Assembly: GCF_030348945.1 (NCBI RefSeq)
Contig: NZ_JAUCEN010000002.1
Span: 992,001-1,056,000 of the forward strand
DNA from: Peribacillus sp. ACCC06369
GTDB taxonomy: Bacteria > Bacillota > Bacilli > Bacillales > DSM-1321
Direction of reading: 5' to 3'
Length of the DNA: 64,000 nt
Part shown: piece after piece, positions 25,336 to 32,926 of the stretch
How the letters are laid out: every line of letters begins with the position of its first letter
How positions within the stretch are numbered: position 1 is the first letter of the stretch
The notes under the pieces: generated by a model
Seen by the model: only the letters and a program-made list of their open reading frames with translations
Database searches by the model: none
Told to the model about the DNA's origin: nothing
Position numbers and translations under genes: made by a program

Positions 25336-26751
25336 ATGAATGGAGCGGAGCAAAAGGCTCTGGAATATGCCATTAGTGAAATTACAGAAATAGCAACTGG
25401 GTTCGGGTTGGATTTTTACCCGATGCGTTATGAAATTTGCCCTTCAGAAATCATTTATACATTTGGTGCCTATGGGATGCCGACCCGTTTTTCTCATTGG
25501 AGTTTTGGGAAGCAGTTTCATAAAATGAAGCTGCAGTATGACTTTGGATTAAGTAAGATCTACGAACTGGTCATTAACTCTAATCCTTGTTACGCTTTTC
25601 TGTTGGACTCCAATTCACTTGTACAAAATAAATTGATTGTTGCCCACGTTTTGGCGCATTGTGATTTCTTTAAGAATAATATACGTTTTAATAATACTAA
25701 GAGAGATATGGTGGAAAGTATGTCGGCCACGGCAGAAAGAATCCGTGAATATGAAATCCTGCATGGCAAAAAGGAAGTGGAAACTTTCCTCGATGCACTA
25801 TTAGCCATTGAAGAACATATCGATCCGTCGTTGATGAGACCGAAGCTTGCCTGGACGATGGAAGATGAGGAAGAAGAAGAGGAAATAAAACCGACAGCCA
25901 CACAATACGATGATTTATGGAATCTTGAAAATAAGGATAAACCGAAGAAATCCACCGTGAAAAAAAGAAAAAAATTCCCGCCAAGGCCTGAAAAGGATAT
26001 TATGCTTTTCATAGAACAGTACAGCAGGGATCTAACAGATTGGCAACGGGATATCATGACGATGATCAGGGAAGAGATGCTGTATTTCTGGCCGCAGCTG
26101 GAAACGAAAATCATGAATGAAGGCTGGGCATCCTACTGGCATCAACGCATAATCCGTGAATTGGATTTATCCTCAGGGGAAGCGATTGAATTCGCTAAAC
26201 TGAACGCAGGTGTCGTTCAGCCATCAAAGACCAGCATCAACCCTTATTATCTTGGATTAAAAGTGTTTGAAGATATTGAAGAACGCTATGATAATCCAAC
26301 TGAAGAGATGATCAGGCTTGGCGTCATGCCCGGATCTGGACGGGAAAAGATGTTCGAAGTTAGGGAAATCGAATCTGACATTTCCTTTATCCGTAATTAT
26401 TTGACGAAAGATCTGGTCATGCGTGAAGATATGTATTTATTCCAAAAGCAGGGCAAGGATTATAAAATCGTCGATAAAGCATGGGAACAGGTTCGTGACC
26501 AACTCGTCAGTATGAGGGTTAACGGCGGATTCCCCTATATCACAGTAAATGATGGAGACTTCATGCGTAATGGCGAACTTTATCTGAAACATTGGTATGA
26601 AGATATTGAACTGGATCTGAAATATCTTGAGAAAGTCATGCCATATATCCATCAGCTTTGGGGACGCTCCGTGCATATGGAATCAGTCATGGAAGGAAAA
26701 GAAGTCCTGTTTTCCTATGATGGAAAAGGTATTCACCGGAAATATTTATAA
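25336..26751 (+). CDS. spoVR: SpoVR family protein
   Basis: 471 residues with the SpoVR pattern: [31 protein letters not shown] at the N-terminus, [11 protein letters not shown], and [16 protein letters not shown] in the middle. An acidic EEEEEE stretch near residue 180. In B. subtilis SpoVR takes part in spore cortex formation; the biochemical role is unknown. Homologues also occur in non-sporeformers. Monocistronic with a strong terminator. The gene supports a spore-forming host. Confidence 0.93.
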
Positions 26752-26757
26752 AGAGGA

Positions 26758-26789
26758 AGAAAACTGCCGGTCACTCGGCAGTTTTCTTG
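26758..26789 (+). terminator. Terminator of spoVR
   Basis: AGAAAACTGCCG / CGGCAGTTTTCT stem followed by TGTTTC. Confidence 0.9.
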
Positions 26790-26795
26790 TTTCAT

Positions 26796-26831
26796 CCAAT
26801 ACTTGCGATTTGCAAGTATTGGTGTTATATA
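26796..26831 (+). promoter_or_regulatory. Operator 1 (ACTTGC-N5-GCAAGT) and overlapping promoter of the ArsN1-like gene
   Basis: CCAATACTTGC / GCAAGTATTGG is a perfect 11-bp inverted repeat. Its centre TTGCGATTTGCAA matches the sites before the marR gene and the flavoprotein gene. TTGCGA (26803) and TATATA (26826) are 17 bases apart and could be -35 and -10, placing the operator over the -35 box. Confidence 0.65.
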
Positions 26832-26887
26832 TAATATAGAATATTTTGAATGAACTCATTTGGTAGCGAAAGGAGCAGGGGAAAGAT

Positions 26888-27373
26888 ATGATCATTCGTG
26901 AAGCGATGGAAACGGACATAGATTCCGTCAAAGAAATTTACAATCAAGGAATTGAGGATAGGGTTGCCACGTTAGAAACGGAACCGAAGGATCAAGCCTA
27001 CATGAAGGATTGGTTTGCCAAGCACATGGGACGATATAAGGTAATCGTCGCCGAGCAAGAAGGGGAAGTCGTTGGATGGGCTTCCTTGAATCCATATAAC
27101 AATCGCTGTGCTTATAAAGGGGTTGCTGATTTATCCGTTTATATCTCAAGAGATCATCGAGGAAAAGGGATTGGCGGTTTATTGCTTCAATCAATCGAAA
27201 AGATCGCAGAAGGAAATGACTTCAATAAAATTGTGTTATTCACATTTCCTTTTAACCAGGTTGGTCAAGGATTGTACAAAAAAAGGGGTTATCGTGAAGT
27301 GGGTGTGTTTAAGAACCAGGGAATATTAGATGGGGAATATGTCGATGTTATGGCTATGGAGAAATTACTGTAA
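26888..27373 (+). CDS. arsN1: GNAT acetyltransferase, phosphinothricin/arsinothricin type (ArsN1-like)
   Basis: 161 residues: GNAT fold with VYISRDHRGKGIGGLLLQSIEK as acetyl-CoA loop and the PAT-type start MIIREAMETDIDSVKEIYNQGIEDRVATLETEP. PAT-family enzymes acetylate the amino group of phosphinothricin; the ArsN1 branch does the same to the arsenic antibiotic arsinothricin and sits in ars clusters. The marR, flavoprotein and arsRBC genes that follow, and the shared operator, favour ArsN1, but a general PAT cannot be excluded. Confidence 0.7.
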   Translation: MIIREAMETDIDSVKEIYNQGIEDRVATLETEPKDQAYMKDWFAKHMGRYKVIVAEQEGEVVGWASLNPYNNRCAYKGVADLSVYISRDHRGKGIGGLLLQSIEKIAEGNDFNKIVLFTFPFNQVGQGLYKKRGYREVGVFKNQGILDGEYVDVMAMEKLL

Positions 27374-27394
27374 ACAAATAGGGGGTAGGAGGGG

Positions 27395-27586
27395 ATGACT
27401 GTTAACCATTCAAGCGTATTGTCTGTTGATTATTTTGATGCCTATTTCAAGTTGGTTTTAGCTTCTCGTGAACCTAGGGTGGAAAAGGCAAAAGAATTCA
27501 TCGAAACAAACTTTTTTAAAGGCAAAGCTTGCTATTATGGCGAGCAAACTCACCGAAATTTCATTACGGCTTTTAACAAGCTATAA
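27395..27586 (+). CDS. Small protein of unknown function (63 aa)
   Basis: Behind a strong AGGAGGGG site and 22 bases after the ArsN1-like gene, so probably translated from the same mRNA. The sequence (SVDYFDAYFKLVLASREPRVEKAKEFIETNFFKG...CYYGEQTHRNF) has aromatic residues, one Cys, no membrane segment and no family that I recognise. It could be an intact small gene or the remnant of a larger one. Confidence 0.55.
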   Translation: MTVNHSSVLSVDYFDAYFKLVLASREPRVEKAKEFIETNFFKGKACYYGEQTHRNFITAFNKL

Positions 27587-27616
27587 GGATAAATTAAAAA
27601 TAGTTGATTTAAATAG

Positions 27617-27645
27617 TTGCAATATGCAAATAATGTGAGTATAAA
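27617..27645 (+). promoter_or_regulatory. Operator 2 and promoter of the marR gene
   Basis: TTGCAATATGCAA is a perfect 13-bp palindrome. Its TTGCAA also forms a -35 box 17 bases from TATAAA, so a bound repressor would block the polymerase: a layout expected of MarR autoregulation. Confidence 0.7.
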
Positions 27646-27663
27646 TATAGTGAGGTGAAAGTA

Positions 27664-28119
27664 ATGGAAAATGAAAACCTTAGAGGTCTCTTCCAACTCT
27701 TAACTAGACGTTTTGGATTATTGAATAAAAATTGCTGCAGCGCAGATGGAATTGAGATATCACTTGTTCAAAGTCATATTCTATATGAAATAAACCGACA
27801 GAATAACGCTTCCATCCAGCAAATTGCAGAAACACTGGGAACGGATATTACGACGTTCAGCCGACAAATCCAATCCCTAATAAAATTGAATTTAGTCACA
27901 AAAACCCCTCATGCGGAAGATCGGAGAATTTCTATCCTTTCTCTGACCGATGAAGGAGTGAAAGTCAATCAAACAATCGATCAGCAAATGAATGATTACT
28001 TGAATGAGATCTTCAAGACGATGAATGAGTTTGAAAAGGAATCCGTCGTGCGTGCTCTGACATTGCTTAATGATCGAATGTTGAAGTCTTCCGTATGTTG
28101 TACTACTCCTTGGGGGTAG
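27664..28119 (+). CDS. MarR-family regulator with two vicinal cysteine pairs
   Basis: 151 residues with a MarR winged helix (NNASIQQIAETLGTDITTFSRQIQSLIKLNLVTKTPHAEDRRISILSLT). Unusual features are Cys24-Cys25 (NKNCCS) before the helix-turn-helix and Cys145-Cys146 (SVCCTT) near the end. In a MarR dimer both lie in the helical dimerisation region, so they could bring thiols together to bind As(III), Sb(III) or another soft metal, or act as a redox switch. Start is the ATG after GAGGTG; the GTG at 27655 would overlap that site. Metalloid sensing is inference. Confidence 0.85.
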   Translation: MENENLRGLFQLLTRRFGLLNKNCCSADGIEISLVQSHILYEINRQNNASIQQIAETLGTDITTFSRQIQSLIKLNLVTKTPHAEDRRISILSLTDEGVKVNQTIDQQMNDYLNEIFKTMNEFEKESVVRALTLLNDRMLKSSVCCTTPWG

Positions 28120-28138
28120 TATAATTTTTCAAGAATAC

Positions 28139-28151
28139 TTGCAAATTACAA
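28139..28151 (+). promoter_or_regulatory. Operator 3 upstream of the flavoprotein gene
   Basis: TTGCAAATTACAA, embedded in ACTTGCAAATTACAACT, is one arm-base off the palindrome seen in operators 1 and 2. It lies about 30 bases before the flavoprotein ATG. A -10 box is less clear here. Confidence 0.5.
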
Positions 28152-28182
28152 CTTTTTTGAAATGAAAATATAGGAGGGAATA

Positions 28183-29559
28183 ATGATGGTTCAATTTGAT
28201 AAAAGTGCATTACCCGTAGCAATTATAGGTGGGGGTCCTGTGGGGCTGGCCGCTGCCGCTCATTTACAAAAAAAAGGAGAGAAGTTTATTGTATTGGAAG
28301 TAGGCGACTCGGTTGGTTCCAGCATGTTGGAGTGGGGACACGTTCGAATGTTTTCTCCGTGGCAATATAACATCGATAAAGCAGCAAAGGAACTGCTGGA
28401 GAACTCTGGTTGGATGTCACCTGACGGAAATGCTTTGCCAACAGGTCGCGAACTGGTAGTAGAGTACCTTCTTCCGTTGAGTAACCTTCCAGAAATAAAA
28501 GAAAAGATCATCTTACAAGCAAAAGTAGTCGGTGTTGCCAAAAAGGCTCATGATAAATTAAAAACAGGAAAACGGGACACGGTTCCCTTTCAACTGTATG
28601 TAGAAGTGAATGGTGACACACAAGTCATTGAAGCGAAAGCTGTGATTGATTCCTCAGGTACTTGGACCAATCCAAACCCAATCCTTTCAAATGGAATTTG
28701 GACGAATGCCGAGAGAAAATTACACAATCAAATCCACTATGGCATTCCTAACGTCGAACAACTAGAAAACAGATATCAAAATAAAACCACCGTGGTGATC
28801 GGAAGTGGCCATTCTGCCATAAATGCTCTATTGGATCTGGCCACCTTACAGCAGAAATTTACGGATACAAAGATCTACTGGGTTCTTCGTAAAAAACAAA
28901 TCAAAGAAGTGTACGGCGGGCAAGAAAACGACGGCTTGGCCGCTCGTGGAGAATTGGGCATTAGAATTCAGCACTTAGTGGAGTCTGGACGCATAGTAAT
29001 ACTCACTCCCTTTCATATTAACGGAGTTTATCCAACAAACGATAAAATCACTGTGGTGGGAGAACTTAACGGCGAAGAATTCACACTCGGTGATATCGAT
29101 GAAATCGTTGTGAGTACGGGTTTCAGACCAGATACATCCTTTTTAAATGAAATTAGGATAAACCTTGATTCAGCTGTGGAAAGTATAGAAGCGCTTGCTC
29201 CGTTAATTGATCCCAATATTCATAGTTGTGGAACCGTGCGGCCGCATGGTGAACAAGAGTTACGGCACCCTGAAAAGGACTTCTACATTGTTGGCATGAA
29301 GAGCTACGGAAGAGCACCTACCTTCTTACTGGCGACAGGCTACGAACAAGTCCGTTCCGTGGTGGCTTATCTTACTGGCGATGTAGAGGGAGCAAAAGAA
29401 GTACACTTGGAACTCCCTGAAACAGGGGTGTGCAGTGTTAATATAACTTCTAGTTCCTGCGATTCTGATATTCCTGAAACTGAAACAAAGGATGGTTCTT
29501 GCTGTGGCGTCCCCGTTCTAGCGAGGTTGGAAATTAAAAATAATTCTTGTTGTAAATAA
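28183..29559 (+). CDS. FAD/NAD(P)-binding flavoprotein with cysteine-rich tail
   Basis: 458 residues. IIGGGPVGLAAAAHL (~11-25) binds FAD and VVIGSGHSAINALLDL (~204-219) binds NAD(P), the two-Rossmann design of flavin monooxygenases and related reductases. The last ~45 residues hold six cysteines as C..SSC..SCC..SCC, beyond the catalytic fold, a likely metal(loid)-binding tail. Homologues of this type occur in ars regions of Bacillaceae, but I know of no settled function. It might oxidise As(III) or organoarsenicals, or reduce a metal; both are inference. RBS AGGAGGG. Confidence 0.82.
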   Translation: MMVQFDKSALPVAIIGGGPVGLAAAAHLQKKGEKFIVLEVGDSVGSSMLEWGHVRMFSPWQYNIDKAAKELLENSGWMSPDGNALPTGRELVVEYLLPLSNLPEIKEKIILQAKVVGVAKKAHDKLKTGKRDTVPFQLYVEVNGDTQVIEAKAVIDSSGTWTNPNPILSNGIWTNAERKLHNQIHYGIPNVEQLENRYQNKTTVVIGSGHSAINALLDLATLQQKFTDTKIYWVLRKKQIKEVYGGQENDGLAARGELGIRIQHLVESGRIVILTPFHINGVYPTNDKITVVGELNGEEFTLGDIDEIVVSTGFRPDTSFLNEIRINLDSAVESIEALAPLIDPNIHSCGTVRPHGEQELRHPEKDFYIVGMKSYGRAPTFLLATGYEQVRSVVAYLTGDVEGAKEVHLELPETGVCSVNITSSSCDSDIPETETKDGSCCGVPVLARLEIKNNSCCK

Positions 29560-29564
29560 AACAG

Positions 29565-29600
29565 AAGACGAGTCTGGTGATACGAGACTGGTCTTTTTAT
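29565..29600 (+). terminator. Terminator of the flavoprotein gene
   Basis: AAGAC.AGTCT / AGACT.GTCTT stem with one mismatch, then TTTTTAT. Confidence 0.75.
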
Positions 29601-29716
29601 AGACATTGGTAAACATAATCTCTCGGGCACTAAGGAACTAACTCACCTTTAAGTTTAAGTACAATATTTCACAATCTTGCTTTCTTGATAACTATTACTA
29701 AAGGTTTGATATAAAA

Positions 29717-29751
29717 AAAGGGAACACCTGCTAACCAGGAAGTTCCCTTTT
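29717..29751 (-). terminator. Terminator, leftward orientation
   Basis: AAAGGGAAC / GTTCCCTTT stem with a seven-base A-run on the left, giving a U-tract in the leftward direction. It lies ~215 bases past the cwlJ stop, the nearest leftward gene. Confidence 0.7.
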
Positions 29752-29965
29752 CATTTCGTGAGTTAAAAATACACTAAAACAACGGTTGAAAAAATAGGCT
29801 GGGGATTCAAGCTTCTTTAACAGACAACCGTTACATTACCAACAGGAGTTGTATTGAATGAATGTGGTTGGCTATCAGCACCTACGACTAAAAGATTTTG
29901 TATTCGCGGAACCGAAAAGAAAAATTACAATAAAACTCCAGAATTAATAAGAGCTCCTAGACAAC

Positions 29966-30406
29966 CTAACCGGAATAAACACTTTCACATGTTCCAGGCT
30001 TTGGTTCATAATAACAATGATTTTTATATTGTCCAGCAAAAGGTTGACCGTACCATGTTGGTGGGCATGGAGCATATGGATTAAAATACCAAAGAGCGTA
30101 TTTCCCTGGGTGTTGCCTCCAATAATCCAAATTCTGTTTCGCTAATCTTTTTTCAGCAGTTCTCGCTCTTTGATAAAATACATTACCTTTTTGAACAGCT
30201 TCAAAAGAATAATTTCCTCCTTGAACTTGATAAACGACTTGTGGAATTGTTCTTAAATCTTTAAAGTCTATACAATTTGCTTTAAGACGATTTACAATTA
30301 CATTGCCAACATATAACATTCCTTGTAATCCTTCACCTTCAGCTTCTGCTCTCATCATCCTTGCCATTAAGTCAACGTCTGAACTTCGGTAATTTACTCT
30401 TGGCAT
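29966..30406 (-). CDS. cwlJ: Spore cortex-lytic hydrolase CwlJ
   Basis: 146 residues, close to the usual CwlJ length, without a signal peptide, as known for CwlJ, which is placed in the spore coat. The SleB/CwlJ domain is complete: DVDLMARMMRAEAEGEGLQGMLYVGNVIVNRL with the catalytic Glu, SFEAVQKGNVFYQRA, and KYALWYFNPYAPCPPTWYGQPFAGQYKNHCYYEP. It degrades cortex peptidoglycan during germination. RBS GGGGTG. It lies, oddly, between two arsenic-related transcription units, with gerQ, its usual partner, not in sight. Confidence 0.93.
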   Translation of the reverse strand: MPRVNYRSSDVDLMARMMRAEAEGEGLQGMLYVGNVIVNRLKANCIDFKDLRTIPQVVYQVQGGNYSFEAVQKGNVFYQRARTAEKRLAKQNLDYWRQHPGKYALWYFNPYAPCPPTWYGQPFAGQYKNHCYYEPKPGTCESVYSG

Positions 30407-30810: not shown

Positions 30811-31158
30811 ATGCAAACGAATGAAGCTTTGGATATAGAAGGAACTGCAAACGTTCTTAAACTTCTAGGTGATAAAACTCGTTTGACTATGATTAAAATC
30901 ATGTATGATCATGAATGTTGTGTCTGTGAATTTGTGGACCTGTTCGAAATGAGCCAACCTGCCATCAGCCAACATTTACGGAAAATGAAAGATAGTGGAA
31001 TCGTGAAAGAATCGAGAAGGGGGCAATGGGTCTTTTATTCGTTAAACCAGTCTTCTTCCTATTACTCATTTATTCAGACGGTCATCAAGGATTTGCCAAG
31101 TCAAAACTTTAAATTAGAAGAATTATCAGCACAAGGAAAACGGATTTGTTGTGACTAA
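30811..31158 (+). CDS. arsR: ArsR-type metalloregulatory repressor
   Basis: 115 residues. Winged helix VCEFVDLFEMSQPAISQHLRKMKDSGIVKESRRGQWVFYSL. The inducer site is the cysteine cluster ECCVCEF (Cys36, 37, 39) at the start of the recognition helix-turn-helix, the classical As(III)/Sb(III) site. It should repress its own operon through the palindrome ahead of it. arsB follows after 18 bases. Confidence 0.93.
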   Translation: MQTNEALDIEGTANVLKLLGDKTRLTMIKIMYDHECCVCEFVDLFEMSQPAISQHLRKMKDSGIVKESRRGQWVFYSLNQSSSYYSFIQTVIKDLPSQNFKLEELSAQGKRICCD

Positions 31159-31176
31159 CTAGGAGGTACTATTTCA

Positions 31177-32475
31177 GTGGGACCAGTTATTTTGGCAGTT
31201 ATCATCTTTTTATTAACACTCATTCTCGTCATCTGGCAGCCAAAGGGATTGTCGATCGGTTGGTCAGCTTGTGGCGGTGCGGTTTTGGCCTTACTTGTTG
31301 GTGTGGTGGATTTTACTGATGTCATAGACGTGACATCCATAGTCTGGAACGCTACACTGGCCTTCATCGCCATCATCATCATCTCGCTTATTTTGGATGA
31401 GATAGGATTTTTTGAATGGGCAGCACTGCATATGGCTAGGGCAGCCAAGGGAAATGGAGTAAGGATGTTTGTTTATGTAAGTATCCTCGGTGCTCTTGTA
31501 GCTGCTTTTTTTGCAAATGACGGAGCTGCTCTAATCCTTACCCCGATTGTATTAGCAATGGTTCGTGCCCTAAAGTTTAATGATAAAATGATATTCCCAT
31601 TCATCATCGCCAGTGGGTTTATTGCGGACACAACCTCATTGCCTTTAGTGGTGAGTAATCTTGTAAACATTGTTTCTGCAGATTTTTTCAATATCAGTTT
31701 TGCCGAGTTTGCATCAAGAATGATCGTACCAGATCTTTTTGCATTGGTAGCAAGCATCTTGGTTTTATATCTGTTTTTCCGTAAAAGCATACCGGAAAAT
31801 TATGATGTATCCCAACTTAAAAAACCAGTGGAAGCCATTCGGGACCAAAGAATGTTCCGGTTGTCCTGGATAGTATTAGGAATATTGCTGGTAGGTTATT
31901 TTGCCAGTGAATTTATTGGAGTGCCTGTATCCATCATTGCAGGCATTGTGGCTATTTTCTTCCTCATGATGGCTAGAAGGAGTCCAGCAGTCAATACGAA
32001 AACAGTTATTAAAGGAGCACCATGGGCAATCGTCTTTTTCTCTATAGGCATGTATGTTGTTGTGTACAGCCTGCGGAATGTTGGATTGACGAATGTATTG
32101 ACGGATTTAATCCAAGTTACATCCAATCAAGGATTATTTACAGCAACGATGGGGATGGGCTTCATAGCCGCCATTCTTTCATCGTTTATGAATAACATGC
32201 CAACCGTGATGATTGATGCCCTTGCCATTTCCGATACCAATACTACAGGCGTGATCAGGGAAGCCCTTATATATGCAAATGTCATTGGTTCGGACTTGGG
32301 ACCGAAAATCACTCCGATTGGTTCTTTGGCAACGTTATTGTGGCTGCATGTCCTATCATTAAAAGGCGTGAAAATCTCATGGGGAACCTATTTTAAAACT
32401 GGAATCATCTTAACCATCCCAACATTGTTCATCACATTAGTTGGCTTATATATATGGTTACAAATTATTCATTAA
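31177..32475 (+). CDS. arsB: Arsenite/antimonite efflux permease ArsB
   Basis: 432 residues with ~12 membrane segments of the ArsB/ion transporter superfamily ([57 protein letters not shown] are family landmarks). It exports As(III) by proton exchange. GTG start 10 bases after AGGAGG. No ArsA ATPase is encoded, as usual for Gram-positive ars operons. Confidence 0.95.
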
Positions 32476-32506
32476 ACACTTACATTATTCATGAAGGAGA
32501 AACAGC

Positions 32507-32926
32507 ATGGCTAAAAAAACATTATACTTCTTATGTACTGGTAACTCTTGCAGAAGCCAAATGGCGGAGGCTTGGGGGAAGAAATATTTAGGTGACGAAT
32601 GGCAAGTGCTTAGTGCAGGAATCGAAGCACATGGGTTAAATCCAAAAGCTGTACAAGCAATGAATGAAGTTGGATTGGACATCTCCAATCAAACATCGGA
32701 TATCATCGACCCTGACATATTGAATAATGCCGATTTTGTCGTTACGTTATGTGGCGATGCGGCAGACAAATGTCCAATGACACCACCGCATGTTAAACGC
32801 GAACACTGGGGCTTTGATGACCCGGCAAAAGCGGAAGGAACAGATGAAGAAAAATGGGCTACCTTCCAACGTGTTCGTGATGAAATAGGAGAAAGAATCG
32901 AACGTTACTCTAAAACGGGCGTATAA
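32507..32926 (+). CDS. arsC: Thioredoxin-coupled arsenate reductase
   Basis: 139 residues with the low-molecular-weight phosphatase-like loop [12 protein letters not shown] (Cys10, Cys15, Arg16) and the second pair in [15 protein letters not shown] (Cys82 and Cys89). Cys10 attacks arsenate, then the disulfide moves to Cys82-Cys89 and is reduced by thioredoxin. It is the last gene of arsRBC, 31 bases after arsB, and supplies As(III) for export. Confidence 0.96.

Follow-up and report, generated by a model that had tools for sequence, protein, structure and literature searches.

The window, that is, the whole stretch of 64,000 nucleotides of Peribacillus sp. ACCC06369 analysed here, carries a gene module that is probably controlled by a MarR-family repressor, which would regulate its own gene together with an arsenical-detoxification regulon and would sense a trivalent, most likely organic, arsenical via pairs of cysteines. 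In the mechanism that we propose, a MarR homodimer would bind a 23-bp palindrome that occurs in three copies, two of them over the -35 elements of the marR and arsN1 promoters and one between marR and the flavoprotein gene, and would thereby silence the regulon. The N- and C-terminal Cys-Cys pairs would capture a trivalent arsenical, for which an organoarsenical such as methylarsenite is the likeliest candidate; the MarR would then leave the DNA, and ArsN1 with a small protein, MarR itself and a Cys-tailed flavoprotein would be made. Read directly from the sequence are the palindromes and how they are conserved, the link between them and this MarR, the overlap of two of them with promoters, the gene content of the loci and the cysteine pairs; from these features we infer binding, repression, the effector and the enzyme activities. 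The features of the module are listed in Table 1.

Table 1. Features of the module and its neighbourhood; positions count from the first nucleotide of the window.
Feature	Position	Strand	Remarks
Candidate operator S1	26798..26820		near-perfect 23-bp palindrome AATACTTGCGATTTGCAAGTATT; over the -35 element (TTGCGA, 26803-26808) of the arsN1 promoter
Candidate operator S2	27612..27634		23-bp palindrome AATAGTTGCAATATGCAAATAAT; over the -35 element (TTGCAA, 27617-27622) of the marR promoter
Candidate operator S3	28134..28156		AATACTTGCAAATTACAACTTTT; between the marR hairpin and the flavoprotein gene
arsN1, arsinothricin N-acetyltransferase family A	26888..27373	+	NCBIfam NF040503, 221.8 bits (cut-off 170)
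Small ORF, 63 aa	27395..27586	+	between arsN1 and marR
marR regulator	27655..28119	+	Pfam MarR, 47.3 bits (cut-off 24.6)
Terminator-like hairpin	28097..28125	+	over the marR end, just before S3; z -4.3 (window, against mononucleotide shuffles)
Flavoprotein (FAD/NAD(P), Pyr_redox_3)	28183..29559	+	Cys-rich tail with CC pairs
arsR-arsB-arsC	30811..32926	+	neighbouring context, outside the regulon

The first-pass annotation of this DNA had claimed three copies of one palindrome in front of arsN1, marR and the flavoprotein gene. This was confirmed, the copies being the 23-bp sites S1 to S3 with the operator core ACTTGC-N5-GCAAGT, and the coordinates 26803, 27617 and 28139 given earlier correspond to the first T of TTGC in S1, S2 and S3, respectively. 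S1 shares 78% identity with S2 and likewise with S3, and among the direct repeats of positions 26000-30000 these sites form the first-listed family. A loose pattern, ACTTGCNAWWTGCAAGT with at most two mismatches, matches the genome at 12 places (17 strand rows; 10+10 in the backward control). Three of these places fall inside 1.4 kb and the sole place without a mismatch is S1, but since the backward control was not exceeded the loose pattern alone is not significant. The tighter pattern ANTTGYRWWWYRCAANT, which was composed to fit S1-S3, matches only these three sites in the 5.62-Mb genome (backward control, 2+2 rows). Scored with a matrix to whose training set all three belong, S1, S2 and S3 reach 32.0, 29.5 and 29.5 bits, and 6 Mb of simulated sequence (first-order Markov) contained four scores of at least 15 bits, one of at least 18 and none of at least 20. 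A candidate for a fourth regulon site (L008, 19.7 bits) was rejected, as it lies inside an ORF that by eye resembles an alpha-glucosidase and scores near chance level.

To build the matrix, sites were collected from relatives. A strong MarR orthologue is present in the window genome and in 17 others of the family's 43 genomes, the copy of G015 being in two pieces, and the window and 16 of the 17 relative stretches supplied the 30 distinct 23-mers of the symmetric matrix. There were 47 site matches, of which 39 (30 distinct) were entered, while seven at unrelated positions and the single one of L057 were dropped by hand, so that weaker sites of the family are absent from the matrix. A scan of genome contigs yielded 460 relatives, the best 80 of which were retained (L090-L169); omission of L090-L097, whose contigs are, judged by length, those of training loci, left 72 test loci. 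A site was counted as preceding marR if it scored at least 15 bits and lay at most 120 bp upstream of the marR match.

A matrix scan of related genomes, which the first-pass annotation had suggested as a check, found the motif again beside MarR orthologues. Among the 72 test loci, which are kin rather than phylogenetically independent (many are from Paenibacillus, and L153, L154, L157 and L158 are near-identical), sites of at least 15 bits were found before marR in 68, just behind marR in 69 and at both places in 67. The two sites are the top two of their locus in 66 of the 72, the median best score elsewhere being 2.3 bits. In L114 and L115 both expected sites are missing and sites precede an ArsO-like gene instead; the upstream site of L125 and L147 scores below 15 bits, and L166 has no site behind marR. 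Extra sites of at least 15 bits outside the expected stretches occur in five loci (L114, L115, L138, L147 and L159), one preceding arsN1 in L138 and L159 and another preceding arsP in L138. Two results would suit an origin of the palindromes by chance or as simple AT-rich palindromic sequence, namely that the loose pattern with two mismatches does not beat its backward control and that one unrelated site of the genome, L008, comes close to 20 bits. Such an origin is nevertheless barely conceivable given the recurrence of both sites in the test loci, the simulated sequence devoid of comparable scores and the uniqueness of the fitted pattern in the genome, and we regard it as already refuted by the conservation data.

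Of 398 Bacilli genomes sampled, 84, from 42 of 146 genera, have a match to the profile of this MarR at E 1e-30. Brevibacillus invocatus contains a second, diverged MarR copy (37% identity; L147:6761-8737); next behind it is a gene of the flavoprotein type, and a weaker site of 17.7 bits separates them. A module of this kind is also carried by plasmid pBO1 of Cytobacillus oceanisediminis 2691 (L140) and can therefore be mobile.

The conserved palindrome covers the -35 element of marR's own promoter. The -35/-10 layout described earlier for S1 (TTGCGA-17-TATATA) and S2 (TTGCAA-17-TATAAA) was seen as stated, and no comparable -10 or ordinary -35/-10 promoter was found at S3. In 83% of 72 distinct sequences of sites before marR, TTGNAA is followed at 17 bp by a TATAAT-like hexamer (at least 5 of 6 positions); with TTGNAA as the -35 element, such a layout corresponds to steric repression and autoregulation. 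The sites after marR showed no clear sigma-A promoter, promoter-like scores before them being below those of shuffles. A candidate S3 promoter in the marR end (TTGTAC-16-TATAAT) was rejected because it falls within the hairpin and because of these low scores. In many loci, the site behind marR is a short way upstream of the next start codon. A repressor bound there may prevent initiation from a start that went unrecognised, or may halt read-through transcription as a roadblock. Many loci show a terminator-like hairpin over the marR end directly before the operator, the T-run being absent in some; over 69 distinct stretches, its mean z is -1.74, with 52% below -1.5 (against mononucleotide shuffles).

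The distribution of the sites also ties them to this MarR. The arsN1 site is present in 10 of the 11 loci in which arsN1 adjoins this MarR (the window and several training loci included) and lost in G027 (L177), and it was found in none of the 11 family loci without this MarR alongside, whose ArsN1 proteins are 64-72% (seven loci) or 35-40% (four loci) identical to that of the window. Likewise, seven flavoprotein loci from genomes without a strong MarR match contain no site, the highest score being 6.4 bits. An ArsR-type gene was recognised by eye in all seven (L071, L072, L074, L087, L076, L077 and L078), and the three of these regulators that were checked score above the cut-off of NF033788. 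In five of them arsN1 is present too, immediately before the flavoprotein gene in L071, L072, L074 and L087 and after it in L076. Together, these seven loci show a natural exchange of the regulator.

It is conceivable that the palindromes serve another regulator, such as the neighbouring ArsR, with the MarR as a bystander, since binding by the MarR is a prediction from sequence and the training sites of the matrix all came from the neighbourhood of this MarR. We consider this highly improbable. Judged on the site distribution, another regulator is unlikely, as the 11 arsN1 and seven flavoprotein loci without an adjacent MarR lack the site despite their ArsR-type genes. Moreover, the half-site ACTTGC is also found in the operator of Escherichia coli MarR, catacttgcctgggcaatatt (5H3R; passages of PMC6480146), in which TTGC and GCAA are 4 bp apart, compared with 5 bp here.

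Operators were further counted per gene, 15-330 bp upstream, in 90 sources, 18 of which are training loci or the window. They precede marR in 87 of 92 cases, ArsO-like genes in 41 of 44, arsP in 11 of 11 and the flavoprotein gene in 29 of 35, and are rarer before arsN1 (12/29), arsM (9/33), arsI (2/21), small ORFs (2/31) and arsR (15/65); genes without a site of their own are often located further along the same gene run. No operator was found in this interval before arsB (0/43) or arsC (0/62), which distinguishes this MarR from the ArsRs but is a weak control, because both genes mostly sit inside arsR-led operons. The 15 arsR genes with an operator have the gap in common with a facing marR, their number being equal to that of the loci in which a reverse arsR faces a site-bearing marR, and such an arsR may share control. 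The earlier proposal of a co-regulated module separate from ArsR control is supported for the window, where matrix scores reveal no MarR operator before arsR-arsB-arsC, but not as a universal rule. Between the module and arsRBC lies a reverse-strand ORF, 29966-30406 (-), which by eye resembles a SleB-like spore cortex hydrolase.

The genes behind marR vary among relatives, but nearly all loci contain arsenic-related ones. Genes were called by tblastn with one or two queries each, and representatives were named by models. Within the best 80 of 460 loci, the first sought gene in the 900 bp that follow marR is an ArsO-like one in 34, of the flavoprotein type in 21, arsM in eight, arsP in seven and arsI in four, with none in six. 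At least one of arsP, arsM, ArsO-like, arsI, arsN1 and flavoprotein genes is present in 77 of these 80, the exceptions being L123, L132 and L166, and, anywhere in the best 80, ArsM occurs in 32, ArsO-like in 38, arsR in 54 and arsB in 36. In 12 control loci of weak-MarR paralogues (approximately 3.3 kb, compared with 5.8-10.5 kb elsewhere), none of the sought genes was found and the best site scored 8.7 bits. Representatives of ArsI/CadI (2/2), ArsM (one, PRK11873), ArsN1a (L138) and Pfam ArsP_1 (2/2) lie above the respective cut-offs. The nearest NCBIfam models of the ArsP representatives, SaoE and SO_0444, score far below theirs, so that ArsP is a Pfam-level name here, and with 226.6 bits in L107 and 273.9 bits in L138, neither ArsO-like representative reaches the ArsO cut-off of 425. 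The presence of ArsO-like, ArsM, ArsP and ArsI genes in the regulons of other species makes (organo)arsenical detoxification the likely common denominator. Small proteins with Cys-Cys pairs are encoded behind an operator or arsP in L052:6828-7013 (-), L053:6357-6527 (-), L055:6899-7102 (+) and L056:5237-5419 (-), and are possibly arsenical-binding.

In the window, ArsN1 scores above the cut-off of the family A equivalog model (Table 1), and acetylation activity is predicted for it. The fourth gene of what had been described as a four-gene module is the 63-aa ORF, which had no match in Pfam or NCBIfam; in relatives it is kept next to arsN1, marR or the flavoprotein gene, although it is broken in L047 and split in L045. 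In relatives (e.g., L130:7009-7230 and L077:1220-1417 (-)), those devoid of the MarR included, the small protein that accompanies one or other of these three genes has approximately 63-80 aa. The flavoprotein resembles ArsO, a flavin monooxygenase, in its FAD/NAD(P) family, and ArsO-like genes are those that follow marR most often in the best 80 loci; it differs in being longer, in its Cys-rich tail, with Cys pairs in the C-terminal 45 residues, and in a score of 58.9 bits for the ArsO equivalog NF040505, whose cut-off is 425. The top fold match of its predicted structure is the bacillithiol disulfide reductase Bdr/YpdA, a lead only, because the model is poor (mean pLDDT 65). A decayed piece resembling the flavoprotein tail is found in the same genome behind a gene that by eye is glmS-like (L192:1791-1931), and pieces similar to it are present in relatives (L193 and L194).

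The regulator belongs to the MarR family by its Pfam score (Table 1) and by its fold, which matches MexR and MarR entries. Its best model matches are MarR models, while the ArsR-type HTH model NF033788 gives 20 bits against a cut-off of 55. The closest solved structure by sequence is MexR (1e-8), and the predicted monomer (mean pLDDT 84) adopts a MarR fold with MexR as its nearest match. Translation could start at GTG 27655 or at ATG 27664, the latter being better placed behind the RBS. Cys27-Cys28 and Cys148-Cys149 (GTG numbering) do not vary among the 17 family sequences that were aligned, the least similar of which has 52% identity, and a CC pair near each end was found in all of the best 80 of the 460 MarRs. 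In the predicted monomer, the first pair is in the strand behind helix 1 and the second in the coil after the last helix, where the block 141-150 has a mean pLDDT of 77 and residues 152-154 are below 50. By analogy with MarR proteins, both pairs presumably lie in the dimerisation region. These two conserved pairs are the likely sensor element, and we hypothesise that they might join in one arsenic site.

Cysteine pairs able to form disulfides would also be expected of a thiol-redox sensor (OhrR-, MexR- or HypR-like) that responds to oxidants or disulfide stress and has the arsenic genes as collateral targets. The MexR entries, which are the best solved-structure matches by sequence, and the Bdr/YpdA match of the flavoprotein, weak as its model is, would fit such a sensor. 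We find it improbable in view of the arsenic-related genes in nearly all of the best 80 loci and of the ArsR-type regulators that take the place of the MarR in relatives.

The same regulon and repressor could, however, respond to inorganic arsenite or antimonite, the organoarsenical genes being just extra arsenic genes. This we consider unlikely, though several observations agree with it. Four cysteines could form a three-thiol As(III) site, and known ArsRs have three-Cys sites (excerpts of PMC11868830). ArsM and ArsO-like genes are frequent in the best 80 loci, and where arsM is the target arsenite is an equally sensible signal; moreover, ArsR-type proteins with a CVCD motif (by eye) replace the MarR in relatives, and some arsR genes share the operator-bearing gap with marR. 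On the other hand, 50 of the 65 arsR genes are without a MarR operator, and in many of the best 80 loci arsR is near inorganic arsenic genes, arsB among them. In addition, the functions of ArsP, ArsI and ArsN1 concern organoarsenicals: ArsP is an exporter of trivalent organoarsenicals, ArsI breaks C-As bonds, and arsinothricin is the substrate acetylated by ArsN1 (excerpts of PMC12607644 and PMC6465285). In SpArsR of Shewanella putrefaciens, two cysteines are enough for MAs(III), while the three As(III) site types listed alongside use three (excerpts of PMC11868830). Because of these gene functions and of the two-Cys precedent, we favour an organoarsenical over arsenite as the effector of the MarR.

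SpArsR is also a close parallel in function, being an organoarsenical-responsive repressor that acts via a cysteine pair (excerpts of PMC11868830), as we infer for this MarR. It differs in belonging to the ArsR family, whereas the window regulator is of the MarR family, contains two CC pairs and goes with an operator of the form TTGC-N5-GCAA. The repressors R773, AfArsR, CgArsR and ArArsR are comparable as thiol-based arsenic repressors of ars operons, but all four belong to a protein family other than MarR, and R773, AfArsR and CgArsR have three-Cys As(III) sites; the arsenic sensors named in the excerpts of that paper are of the ArsR family. Alike in fold are the MarR of E. coli, with the half-site noted above, and MexR of Pseudomonas aeruginosa. 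The targets of these two proteins are multidrug genes. The mention of MarR in the passages of PMC8060452 likewise concerns multidrug genes, whereas the term stands for author names in PMC11653729 and PMC6947025, belongs to a reference title in PMC9137774 and is absent as a whole word from PMC12608789. No MarR-type organoarsenical regulator was found among the matches listed in the open-licence PMC literature, judged by titles, abstract starts and passages, and the first-pass annotation likewise knew of no description of this module. As a lead from a more distant bacterium, activation of arsP in Paraclostridium is given as "mechanism unknown" in the excerpts of a 2024 paper (PMC11653729).

The wider finding is that many Bacilli carry a MarR-type protein with a defined operator, a candidate sensor of (organo)arsenicals. 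Whether this is the first organoarsenical-responsive regulator outside the ArsR family, of MarR type with a double Cys-Cys site, and with a modular regulon of ArsP, ArsI, ArsM, ArsO-like protein, ArsN1 and the Cys-tailed flavoprotein as a new organoarsenical enzyme, its profile being found in approximately one-fifth of the sampled Bacilli genomes, we judge to be evenly balanced. To our knowledge, the sensing of methylarsenite and of arsenic-containing antibiotics by Gram-positive soil bacteria is largely open. If the proposed role holds true, arsenicals would be sensed by two protein families, the MarR type being the second. The regulator could then also serve as a component of biosensors, and searches with its operator could uncover new organoarsenical genes, those of the flavoprotein and the 63-aa protein being examples.
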